Assembly (NCBI GenBank): GCA_020849855.1 | Contig: JADZFO010000006.1 | Span: 1-64,000, forward strand | From: a bacterium | GTDB taxonomy: Bacteria > 4484-113 > JAFGCY01 | Reading direction: 5' to 3' | DNA length: 64,000 nucleotides | In this document: piece by piece, positions 31,735 through 35,281 of the stretch | How positions within the stretch are numbered: position 1 is the first letter of the stretch | Layout of the letters: each line of letters starts with the position of its first letter | Translations under genes and position numbers: made by a program | The notes under the pieces: model-generated | The model's database searches: none | The model's input: only the letters and a program-made list of their open reading frames with translations | What the model was told of the DNA's origin: nothing

Positions 31735-34065
31735 GTGATAGCGCCCCTCAAACTGCCCGGGCTGGCGGGTCTGGCCCTGGCAATACTGATTCTCTGCGCG
31801 GGTGCCGCGAATGCGGCGCCTGCTGCTGCCGCGCCGGACAAGGCAGTGCAGCCGCCGGCAGCCGTGGATCCCGGCAAGGGCGGCGGGACCAGCGCCAGCG
31901 GCCAGGGCCAGGCAAAGCGCAGCTATGCCCCCGCGGCGGCCATGACCACGGGCGCTGACCATGGCAGCTATACCTATACCGCCCGGGTGATCCACAACGA
32001 CCGCAAGTACATGTCCTATGTGAAAGGGAACATTGACCTTGCCAGCGGCGATTTCTTCGAGGAGATCACCCAGAGTTACATCCTGGATTTCAAGGTGATG
32101 CCCGGCAAGCTGGAAGCCGCGCCGCAGGCCATGCCTTCCGTGTGGCAGGTGGCGGGCCGGCCGGCCCAGCGCTTTGGCTCGGCCACGGATGCCAACTCCC
32201 TGCCCTCTTTCGGTTCCTCCCTGCTGCGGCACTTCATCATCGGCCAGGTGATCGGCGCGCCCCAGAGCATCAAGGCCGGGACCTGCTATATCGCCCAGCA
32301 GCTTGAGATTGACACCATCTCCCTTGACGACACCGGATTTGAGATCGTCGGGCGCTACCGCGGCGGTCCGCTGGTGCTGGTCGGCTCGCGGCAGCTTGTC
32401 AACGGGCGGCGCGTGCCGCGTGACATGGCTATCCTGGGGCCTACGGGCGAGCTATACCAGTACTTCTTTGAGGACTTCCACTACAGCGATGCCGCGCTGA
32501 ACCCGCCGGTAGCGCTGCCGCAGTTCAACAGCGCGGATTATGTGAGCTTCCCGGAAGGCGAAGCCCAGGCCGTGGCGATCCGCCCGGTCAAGGACTGGCT
32601 GGTCTTCCAGGCCAGCCTGCCCAGCGGGCGCCAGCTGAACCTGCTGCTGGACTCCGGCGCCGACACCATGATCGTGGACGATCTGGTGCTGGAACTGGAC
32701 GCCGGCCTGACCGCCAGCGGCGACACCACCATGGAGGGCGCGGTGGCCTCCAGCCGGATGAAGCTTTACAAGGGCTTCAGCTTTAATGTCGGCGGGGTGG
32801 AGTTCCGCAACCTGCCGGTTGTCGGCGGCACGATCACCAACATCGCCTTTGGCGCGGGCATGCGCATCCATGGCGTGGTGGGCAGCGAAGTGCTGCAGCT
32901 CTGCCGCCTGGACCTGGACCTCGACAAGGGCCAGATGCGTCTGCTGCCCGCCAGCGCCGCGCCGCCCGCCGGTAATCCCCTGCCCCTGACCTTCATCAAC
33001 GACTTTCCGCATGTTGAGGCCGAGGTGGCCGGCAAGGGCAAGGCCCTGATGCTGCTGGACACCGGCCAGCGCTCACCGGTCTCGGTCAACCTTGACGCGC
33101 TGCAGGACTACAAGCTGGACGACAGCCTGGTCATGGACGGCTTCCTTGGCGATATCGGCGGCTCGCTGCTGCCGCGCTACATGCTGGAGAAGCTGGATGT
33201 CACCCTGGGCGGGCAGACCTTTGAGGAGAAGACGGTGGATGCCGCCCCGGAGGGCACATACCACTACAACGGTGTCCCGGTGATCGGATCCATCGGCTTC
33301 TCGCTGCTGGCCCGGCACTATGGCGGCGTTACCTTTGACTACCACAACAAGTACCTGTACCTGCGCGACCCGTCGCAGCAGCGCGAGTTCAAGACCTCCA
33401 CGGAGGCCTGGACCGCCTGGCAGACCAAGCACTATGACCCCGCGCGCCTGGCAAAGAACCTGGCGGATGAGACGCAGAAGACGGGCTATGAACTGCTGGC
33501 AGCGGAGCTGGCAGAAACGGCTGCGGCGGCCGCGCCTCCGCGCGACCCGGTCGAGGCCCTGCTGGCGGATGCCGGTCTTGCGGATCCCGCCCAGCAAGAG
33601 CCCACGGCAGGCGCAGTGGACTCTTCATCAGCCGCCCAGCAGCAGGACAACAGCGGCCCTGCCGCCAGCGGCCCGGCTGATCCCGGCGCGCCAGCCTTCC
33701 GCCTGGAGGCCCGGGAGCCGAAGGCCGCAGATTCGTCCACAGCAGCGCTGGATCCGGCTGCCGAGGAAACCGCGCCTGGCGCGGAAGATTCAGCCGGCCT
33801 AGGCCGCGGCTCGCGGCCACCGGGAGAAGTGCTGCCGCCCATGACCCTGAAGAAGACCAGCCGCCGACTGCAGGGAAGCGATGCCGTGGCCATGTCGGGG
33901 GCCGGCCTGAACAGCGGCGAGCTGTGGGGAGCACTGAGCGGCCCAGCCCAGCTGAACCGTGCCGGCGAGATCGGCCCGGACAAGGAGCCGCCGGCCTGGC
34001 TGGCGGGGCTGCGCAGCGCCGGGGCGATTCTGGCCGGCGCCCTGCGTGCCGCGCTGCGGCCCTAG
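31735..34065 (+). CDS. Secreted protein with two retropepsin-like aspartyl protease domains
   Basis: The 776-residue protein begins with a signal peptide (LKLPGLAGLALAILILCAGA then ANA). After a 270-residue unassigned region come two consecutive half-pepsin units. The first has LLLDSGADTMIVDD (catalytic-type Asp306) and the later hydrophobic-hydrophobic-Gly segment IHGVVGSEVL. The second has LMLLDTGQRSPVSV (Asp442) and VIGSIGFSLLARHY. Retropepsins need two D-(T/S)-G aspartates to make one active site, usually by dimerisation. Here both are in one chain, so it could act alone. The final 170 residues are Ala/Pro/Ser-rich and probably disordered. GTG at 31735 follows a TATAAT by 6 bases. Protease activity is inferred, not certain. 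Confidence 0.85.
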   Translation: MIAPLKLPGLAGLALAILILCAGAANAAPAAAAPDKAVQPPAAVDPGKGGGTSASGQGQAKRSYAPAAAMTTGADHGSYTYTARVIHNDRKYMSYVKGNIDLASGDFFEEITQSYILDFKVMPGKLEAAPQAMPSVWQVAGRPAQRFGSATDANSLPSFGSSLLRHFIIGQVIGAPQSIKAGTCYIAQQLEIDTISLDDTGFEIVGRYRGGPLVLVGSRQLVNGRRVPRDMAILGPTGELYQYFFEDFHYSDAALNPPVALPQFNSADYVSFPEGEAQAVAIRPVKDWLVFQASLPSGRQLNLLLDSGADTMIVDDLVLELDAGLTASGDTTMEGAVASSRMKLYKGFSFNVGGVEFRNLPVVGGTITNIAFGAGMRIHGVVGSEVLQLCRLDLDLDKGQMRLLPASAAPPAGNPLPLTFINDFPHVEAEVAGKGKALMLLDTGQRSPVSVNLDALQDYKLDDSLVMDGFLGDIGGSLLPRYMLEKLDVTLGGQTFEEKTVDAAPEGTYHYNGVPVIGSIGFSLLARHYGGVTFDYHNKYLYLRDPSQQREFKTSTEAWTAWQTKHYDPARLAKNLADETQKTGYELLAAELAETAAAAAPPRDPVEALLADAGLADPAQQEPTAGAVDSSSAAQQQDNSGPAASGPADPGAPAFRLEAREPKAADSSTAALDPAAEETAPGAEDSAGLGRGSRPPGEVLPPMTLKKTSRRLQGSDAVAMSGAGLNSGELWGALSGPAQLNRAGEIGPDKEPPAWLAGLRSAGAILAGALRAALRP

Positions 34066-34166: not shown

Positions 34167-34172
34167 TAGAAT
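34167..34172 (+). promoter_or_regulatory. Leaderless -10 box (TAGAAT) for the csrA-like gene
   Basis: TAGAAT, then GCTAGC, then the GTG start at 34179. The 6-base gap leaves no room for a leader or ribosome binding site. This matters for an RNA-binding regulator that elsewhere represses its own leader. Confidence 0.6.
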
Positions 34173-34178
34173 GCTAGC

Positions 34179-34601
34179 GTGCTCGTGGTCACCCGCAAGC
34201 CGGGCGAGAAGATCGTCCTGGGCCAGAACTATCTCGTTGAGGTAGTGGCCGTGGAGCGCGGTGTTGTAAAGGTCGCCCTGAATGTGGACCAGCCGGTAAC
34301 ACTGATGCCGGGCCGCATTGAAGTTGACGGCAGCACCGAACCGGGCCAGCAGTCGCGCGTGATCCAGGTCAGCCGCAAGGTGGATGACAGCGTGGTCATC
34401 GGCACAGAGCCCGACCGCCTGATTGAAATCCTCATTGTTTCAGTCAAGGGCGAGGCCGTGCGTATCGGCGTGAAGGCACCGCGGGACGTGCAGGTCTACC
34501 GCGAGGAAGTCTACGAAGAAATCCGCCGCCAGAACATCGCCGCCGCGCAGCCGGTTGAAATCAACCCTGAGGGCCTTGGCGGCCTGATGGACCGCCGCTA
34601 G
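34179..34601 (+). CDS. csrA: CsrA-type RNA-binding regulator with two CsrA units in tandem
   Basis: CsrA is a 60-residue beta-strand protein that dimerises and binds GGA motifs in mRNA leaders. This 140-residue protein begins like CsrA (MLVVTRKPGEKIVLGQ) and runs through strands 2-5 (VEVVAVERGVVKVALNV, TLMPGRIEV). After a 12-residue linker it starts again: RVIQVSRKVDDSVVIG, LIEILIVSVKGEAVRIGVKA, PRDVQVYREEVYEEIRRQ. The second unit (61-118) has the complete pattern including the RNA-contact arginine (Arg108) and the C-terminal helix. The first unit (1-50) keeps the N-terminal Leu-x-x-Thr-Arg but lacks the helix. One chain may therefore mimic the intertwined dimer. A 20-residue tail follows. 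GTG start, leaderless promoter. Confidence 0.88.
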   Translation: MLVVTRKPGEKIVLGQNYLVEVVAVERGVVKVALNVDQPVTLMPGRIEVDGSTEPGQQSRVIQVSRKVDDSVVIGTEPDRLIEILIVSVKGEAVRIGVKAPRDVQVYREEVYEEIRRQNIAAAQPVEINPEGLGGLMDRR

Positions 34602-34640: not shown

Positions 34641-35270
34641 CTAACTCCTGTCCCCCGGTACCGCGTTACCCATACCCCTGTGCACGGCTTTCACGAAGAG
34701 GTCGAGCTGGATCGGCTTGGCCAGGATTTCGCTGACGCCCAGTACTGCGTAGTCACGGCTCAGTTCGGCTGTGATGTAAGCGCTGCAGACGATGATGCGG
34801 CTTTCCTTGTTCTGCTCGCGGATCGCCCGGACGCAGTCCAGGCCGTTCATGTCCGGCATCTGGTGGTCGACGATTACCAGCGTGGGCCGCAGGCTGATGG
34901 CCATGTCTGCGCCATAGACCCCGCCATCGGCGACAGCCAGCACCGGATAGCCCAGCGGCTCGATGAAGGAGCGCAGGCGCATTTGCAGAACTTTTGAATC
35001 ATCAATGATCAGCACACCGCGCCGCAGGGGCTGGTCGCCCAGCGGAGCCGGCTTGTCAAAGACCGGGCCCGGACCAGCGGCCGGCGCCGGGGCCGCGGGG
35101 GCAGCCGCCGGGGCTGGCGCGGCAGCGGCCTTTGCCAGCTGCTTCTTGAGCAGCTCGATTTCAGCCCAGGCATCACCAAGCGAACCGAGCAGTTCCTGGA
35201 TGATGTCCTGTGTGATCTGTATCCGGTCTTCCGCCGAGTTGTCGATGCCGTTGTGTTCTTCAGTTCCCAT
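34641..35270 (-). CDS. Response regulator: coiled coil plus C-terminal receiver domain
   Basis: The 209-residue protein starts with a short acidic helical region (RIQITQDIIQELLGSLGDAW then AEIELLKKQLAKAA), followed by a 30-residue Ala/Pro linker and a receiver domain from about residue 85. The receiver has the acidic pair in LIIDDSK, the phospho-acceptor Asp in LVIVDHQMPDMNG, Ser in IVCSAY and the conserved Lys in LAKPIQ. There is no output domain after the receiver, so output must be through the N-terminal helix or by protein contacts, as in CheY-like regulators. No histidine kinase is adjacent. A TATAAT box ends 11 bases before ATG 35270, giving a leader of about 4 bases. GTG at 35279 is a less likely start. 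Confidence 0.9.
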   Translation of the reverse strand: MGTEEHNGIDNSAEDRIQITQDIIQELLGSLGDAWAEIELLKKQLAKAAAAPAPAAAPAAPAPAAGPGPVFDKPAPLGDQPLRRGVLIIDDSKVLQMRLRSFIEPLGYPVLAVADGGVYGADMAISLRPTLVIVDHQMPDMNGLDCVRAIREQNKESRIIVCSAYITAELSRDYAVLGVSEILAKPIQLDLFVKAVHRGMGNAVPGDRS

Positions 35271-35281
35271 AGGTGTCACGC

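Follow-up and report, generated by a model that had tools for sequence, protein, structure and literature searches.

The window (the whole stretch of DNA that was analysed, 64,000 nucleotides) carries at 34179–34601, on the forward strand, a gene with a GTG start and a TAG stop, encoding a protein of 140 amino acids which, by reading frame, Pfam and alignment, holds two CsrA units in a single chain. The CsrA/RsmA family profile (PF02599) matches twice in one frame, at 34182–34298 (28.0 bits, E 8.8e-6) and at 34371–34526 (56.7 bits, E 9.5e-15), both above the curated cut-off of 27 bits, and scores 81.4 bits over two stretches when set against the whole protein; the claim of two CsrA units in one polypeptide, made in a first-pass annotation of this DNA, is thereby confirmed. 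The plan of the chain is about 49 residues, a linker of about 10, 64 residues of CsrA and a tail of 17. The N unit (residues 1–49; 34179–34325, forward strand) is delimited by the first Pfam match, by AlphaFold2 strands and by alignment A1 of nine two-unit proteins, and aligns gap-free to E. coli CsrA from residue 1 through β5. The linker (residues 50–59; 34326–34355, forward strand) varies in length and sequence among relatives and has a mean pLDDT of 55 (residues 51–60), whilst the C unit (residues 60–123; 34356–34547, forward strand) contains the second Pfam match, superposes on the CsrA chain 2bti_B and, in the window's family, has a four-residue insert after β2.

An in-frame TAG at 34167–34169, three codons 5′ of the GTG, means that the N-terminus of the protein is well bounded. 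A −10-like hexamer, TAGAAT, can be read at 34167–34172 (forward strand), 6 nt 5′ of the GTG, and as a candidate promoter element it would seem to leave the csrA leader very short or absent; no complete sigma-70 site came up in a consensus scan. In another genome of the phylum, G007, TTGACT-18-TATAAT is seen by eye 15 nt before the TTG start of csrA (L137 2017–2064), and GTG or TTG opens eight of the nine two-unit csrA genes, with starts as we chose them. Upstream of the window csrA lies a gene for a 776-residue protein with an aspartyl-protease domain (31735–34065), and downstream a convergent gene for a response regulator (34641–35279). No further CsrA match was found in the window's genome, even at E 0.1, and this is the genome's only CsrA locus.

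AlphaFold2, run on A1, returned a model (pLDDT 83.4, pTM 0.71) with five CsrA-like strands per unit and one helix in total: strands 2–6, 11–14, 18–26, 29–36 and 40–43, with a short 47–49, in unit 1; strands 60–67, 71–74, 82–90, 93–99 and 106–108 in unit 2, and then a helix at 109–123. In this prediction the chain has the β1–β5 plus C-terminal helix fold of CsrA, with unit 1 helix-less; a structure prediction of the monomer had been proposed in the first-pass annotation, and CsrA-like strands are predicted within residues 1–60, where their absence would have counted against the reading. A short HHH turn (residues 78–80) in the modelled C unit falls within the four-residue insert. The C unit fits 2bti_B, described in PMC5864733 as a chain of a domain-swapped dimer, at 0.9 Å over 57/57 residues (Z 6.0), and the RsmN chain 4krw aligns over model residues 1..112 (53 residues, 2.0 Å, Z 4.6); that range, which spans both units and is an alignment range only, fits a position of unit-1 β1 beside unit 2. 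The model of a divergent relative (L009; pLDDT 70.6) is similar but poorer, with a C unit fitting at 1.0 Å over 57 residues and a unit-1 β5 shortened to two residues. Fold-comparison scores alone prove little, since Foldseek on its own is weak (best CsrA-family chains at E 0.14 and 0.19) and unrelated β folds reach Z 7 against the model, above CsrA. None of 11 sequence hits among solved structures is a natural two-unit chain.

The RNA surfaces of CsrA are formed by β1 and β5 of opposing monomers (PMC7652899) or, as given in PMC5864733, by β1′/β4/β5; L4 and R44 are described as particularly critical, and replacement of R44 in E. coli CsrA as abolishing regulation (PMC7652899). Against this background the distribution of conserved residues is uneven: of 15 invariant positions in A1, eight lie in β1–β2 of unit 1 (M1, L2, V3, T5, R6, G9, E10 and G15) and seven in β3–β5 and the helix of unit 2 (V87, G97, A100, P101, R108, E110 and I115), with none across residues 16–86. 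Unit 1 of the window protein keeps T5-R6-K7 in β1, has P44 in place of Arg and has no helix of its own, much as the first-pass annotation had described it (N-terminal contacts kept, C-terminal helix absent); position 4 is Leu or Val, and the R44 counterpart is missing from unit 1 in all nine proteins of the phylum. Unit 2 has V64-S65-R66-K67 as its β1, followed by β2–β5, R108 and the predicted helix. The same annotation had assigned the RNA-binding Arg and the helix to the second unit, and here too it was right: R108 (codon 34500–34502, forward strand), which aligns with CsrA R44, is invariant in 9/9, as are T5 and R6. Its Arg46, put forward as a further RNA contact, is off register, with P44 at position 44 and Asn in the three closest relatives. 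The β1 Arg of unit 2, from our reading of the alignment rows, is kept in five of the nine proteins, the window protein included, and lost in four. Set against the family profile, E. coli CsrA (1y00) places residues 1–25 on unit 1 and 12–58 on unit 2.

Because CsrA sites pair β1 with the β5 of the opposite subunit, the β1N/β5C site can be taken as retained: the parts that are kept are both halves of one site, and the ends that are joined are halves of the other. The decay of the two units, as far as the alignment tells, is complementary. RNA-site residues of the CsrA family are found for one composite site only and, with unit 1 lacking Arg44 in 9/9, two identical sites cannot be read from the sequence; this limits the description of the protein as a ‘classical homodimeric CsrA’, not its kinship with the family. 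A head-to-tail fusion, we deduce, must put the linker at one of the RNA sites.

The two-unit CsrA is old and nearly fixed in the phylum. It is encoded in nine of the ten genomes examined, spanning seven genera, and in all four whose completeness reaches 90%; only G006, at 77% completeness, lacks it and shows no CsrA match. The eight other proteins are 31–60% identical to that of the window, and unit 1 scores 21.6–34.3 bits against PF02599, above the cut-off in seven of the nine; records holding two-unit proteins include JAFGCY010000104, JAGRNT010000005, JAHEFU010000143, JAGGVC010000026, JALSIF010000068, JAUWGS010000005 and JAOZQG010000036. No additional CsrA match above the cut-off occurs among the ten genomes, G002 and G003 each having one extra match far under it (15.2 and 15.7 bits). 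The window protein, used alone as a query against the genome contigs, returned no relative.

As to what the protein might regulate, FliW is found in six of the ten genomes of the phylum (G000, G001, G002, G007, G008 and G009), together with FlhA and flagellin, and none of the three is found in the remaining four; FliW is present, that is, in 6/6 flagellar genomes and 0/4 others. The fliW gene ends about 120 nt before csrA in G007 (by eye) and is its immediate upstream neighbour in G009, with the two genes on separate contigs in G000, G001, G002 and G008; the FliW of the window's genome is encoded at G000:C7:34831–35190. The residue matching the FliW-contact Asn, which we take to be N55 in B. 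subtilis CsrA, is Ile or Met in the FliW-bearing G007 and G009. Flagellin may not be the sole target, since G003, G004 and G005 (drafts, 84–91% complete) keep the two-unit CsrA without FliW, FlhA or flagellin.

In 12 of 14 flagellin leaders a hairpin with an ANGGAN loop, of the kind described for RsmE (PMC7652899), sits at the Shine–Dalgarno position, its hexaloop being AAGGAG, ACGGAG or ATGGAG, closed by 5 to 10 pairs; the hairpin is missing from L148 (the window's genome) and L156. A single GGA hairpin is all that was found in nine of the 14, and a second, upstream GGA hairpin in three (L144, L155 and L157) is not conserved. As a control, stems of at least 5 pairs were sought in the window, and occur at 0/87 Shine–Dalgarno-like sites and 5/534 GGAG sites. 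Across 13 aligned leaders the covariation score of the hairpin is 0.692 against 0.214 when shuffled (reached in 0/500), slid versions of the alignment giving at most 0.222; 93.4% of cells are paired (68.5 shuffled) and 19 are changed on both sides (5.6 shuffled). Pairs changed on both sides (5 versus 3.7 shuffled; 99/500) and further pair types (12 versus 9.7 shuffled; 66/500) are less striking, and MFE folding recovers the hairpin in 6/7 leaders, but with no z-score beyond −1.6. A covariance-model search of the ten genomes, in which 150 candidates per genome were scored, gave at least 11 hits at E ≤ 0.01, comprising nine training sequences, one flagellin start (L283) and L276, before an ORF of 38 codons; among the candidates scored, three of the genomes free of flagellar genes had no hit under E 1 and the fourth had one at 0.87. 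At G001:C17:22111–22165 (L276, L298) a pair of GGA hairpins of the flagellin type, separated by 29 nt, precedes that 38-aa ORF, which is not flagellin-like and lies about 2.8 kb past a flagellin leader. The flagellin frames of the phylum are themselves very long, at 896–1144 aa in 14 of 15 (L142–L150, L154–L157 and L160). The leaders and the distribution of FliW suggest that the single-chain CsrA probably controls the amount of flagellar filament protein.

We propose, and consider it likely, that the protein is a pseudo-dimer which occurs naturally as a single chain and has one good RNA site, and that it probably binds the flagellin Shine–Dalgarno hairpin and is released by FliW. One chain, acting as a monomer, would fold as the usual intertwined CsrA ‘dimer’, with units 1 and 2 replacing the subunits. 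Fusion would connect unit-1 β5 to unit-2 β1, placing the linker at the RNA site between them, such that this site decayed; the site that was kept would be the one where the free chain ends meet, made of unit-1 β1 with unit-2 β5 and helix. At this site the protein would probably bind one ANGGAN hairpin containing the Shine–Dalgarno sequence of the flagellin mRNA, and so block ribosomes, with FliW releasing CsrA by acting on the chain's single C-terminal part.

A weak second site may persist alongside the good one, because unit-2 β1 keeps its Arg in five proteins, that of the window included (as S/T-R-K or S-R-Q). Taken further, this would give two unequal but working sites, with β1C/β5N weakly contacting RNA and the chain bridging two sites per RNA, an idea to which the four proteins of the window's own family lend something, each having K or R at unit-1 position 31; set against it are the absence of an R44 counterpart from unit 1 in 9/9, the loss of the β1C Arg as well in 4/9, and flagellin leaders that mostly (9/14) offer one GGA hairpin only, and we regard it as improbable. 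The first-pass annotation had foreseen either two unequal sites or a new dimer geometry; the inequality stands, but one good cross-unit site is favoured over two that work.

One might instead take the better match of the C unit to CsrA (56.7 bits), and its 0.9 Å fit to a CsrA chain, as signs that chains pair C unit with C unit in a true dimer having two standard sites, with unit 1 as a spare or regulatory part; such a dimer requires a sound β1C, which is degenerate in 4/9, and leaves T5 and R6 kept in unit-1 β1 of 9/9, so that we rate it a little lower still. The draft state of the assembly, in 64 contigs, could be held to favour an artefact, or a chance fusion of adjacent csrA genes, a reading to which we attach next to no weight given the same architecture in nine separate genomes of seven genera, in proteins only 31–60% identical to that of the window. 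The two-unit protein in 9/10 genomes likewise rules out a sequencing fusion or frame error, and with it the fusion of adjacent genes, absent in relatives, that the first-pass annotation had allowed for.

Outside the phylum, 132 of the 375 genomes searched with profile A1 have a CsrA match, as do, at a stricter limit, 70 of 199 from another phylum (a set that partly overlaps the 375); no two-unit match was among those listed for either set. In G520, 46 residues align to model positions 1–108, a match that is single-unit in length, and three genomes of the phylum to which G037 belongs yielded a single match, one unit long; a domain scan of the CsrA loci retrieved detected a second unit nowhere but in those of the window's phylum. 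Hits in Cryobacterium that seemed long were rejected, the profile finding no second unit in them. Two genomes, G144 and G281, have 11 and 10 CsrA-profile matches, where most matching genomes show one.

The search for other two-unit CsrAs that the first-pass annotation had suggested was successful beyond the phylum too, on plasmids and viral contigs. In one viral set (T3; five contigs, L199–L203) unit 1 has an intact β1 (with Asn for Thr5 in L201) and Asp at position 44, and unit 2 has a degenerate β1 with VHREE and the helix present. A second set (T4; the three contigs L191, L192 and L204) is compact, with a unit 1 of about 37 residues, and may represent an early or different state, since its unit 2 retains a good β1. 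Of 30 records matched on plasmids of Xanthomonas and Stenotrophomonas, 14 reach 80% coverage of the query or more, the two-unit proteins being annotated only as ‘carbon storage regulator’; the one plasmid protein that was read (L198 3965–4351) keeps unit-1 β1 and the unit-2 Arg only. Over the 18 proteins read, unit-1 R6 and the unit-2 Arg44 counterpart are kept in 18/18 and T5 in 17/18, with the unit-2 Arg located through a motif that contains that Arg and each sequence also inspected; Pfam sees two stretches in each of three proteins tested. Queried with the window protein, plasmids gave no match, nor did phages and plasmids with a T3 protein (L164), nor viral contigs with the plasmid two-unit protein; a T4 protein (L162) matched 85 phage records, none covering 80% of it, and 251 plasmid records, of which 13 did so and led to the Xanthomonas set.

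In a tree of units, single-unit CsrAs from other genomes cluster with the phylum's second units (0.93), and E. coli CsrA with those of the plasmid protein and T3 (0.81). This would point to separate fusions, but the tree, in which the first units have missing columns, is not relied on here. That a one-site, single-chain CsrA arose repeatedly (in the core genome of this phylum, on Xanthomonas/Stenotrophomonas plasmids and in one or more viral lineages), with unit-1 β1 and the unit-2 Arg44 retained on every occasion, is a tentative reading to which we would give slightly less than an even chance. Were it true, fusion would be a recurrent route from a two-site, RNA-bridging regulator to a one-site binder, and the versions on plasmids and phages, which would not bridge, could act as competitors of the two-site CsrA of the host.

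CsrA is a much-studied global regulator. Its two identical sites are thought to be important for the bridging of paired GGA sites within the same RNA (PMC7652899). With an apparently one-site CsrA, and flagellin leaders that mostly offer one hairpin, this phylum puts the need for such bridging to a natural test. The natural protein may also serve as a ready one-site tool for measuring CsrA–RNA and CsrA–FliW binding.

Of known systems, the CsrA/RsmA homodimer (E. coli CsrA, RsmE) shares the predicted fold, the TR(K/R) of β1 and the β5 Arg, as well as a GGA hairpin at the likely target and FliW in flagellated members. The protein described here differs in having two units per chain and one helix, and in carrying its Arg44 counterpart and its invariant β1 on different units; by virtue of that split it would have one full site where the homodimer has two. 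RsmF, presumably, is one unit with a helix inserted between β2 and β3. RsmN/RsmF of Pseudomonas (4kji, 4krw, 4k59) is also a rearranged CsrA, whose alignment crosses both units of our model; by contrast we see two tandem units, as predicted, and neither model (window protein, L009) has an inserted helix of this type. With the FliW–CsrA–flagellin circuit of B. subtilis there is a shared FliW and a shared hairpin at the flagellin Shine–Dalgarno sequence, and fliW adjoins csrA in two members of the phylum, whereas hag is described with two CsrA sites (PMC8523840) and a single hairpin is conserved here.

The first-pass annotation knew of no well-described single-chain CsrA. For natural proteins this holds within the open PMC library (subscription papers lying outside its scope), where we found no description of a tandem or fused CsrA, and domain databases may list a two-CsrA architecture without comment; for engineered ones it does not, as Re-CsrA is close. 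That construct, as described in PMC5864733 (structure 5z38), comprises CsrA 1–44 without the helix, a ten-residue linker and a full CsrA, has one ligand site, and binds CesT there with a normal affinity, about 151 nM versus about 148 nM. The layout of the natural protein (helix-less unit, linker of about 10 residues, complete CsrA) is the same, such that what was built deliberately as Re-CsrA already exists in nature; here, though, it is natural and phylum-wide, and its second site has, by sequence, decayed as well.
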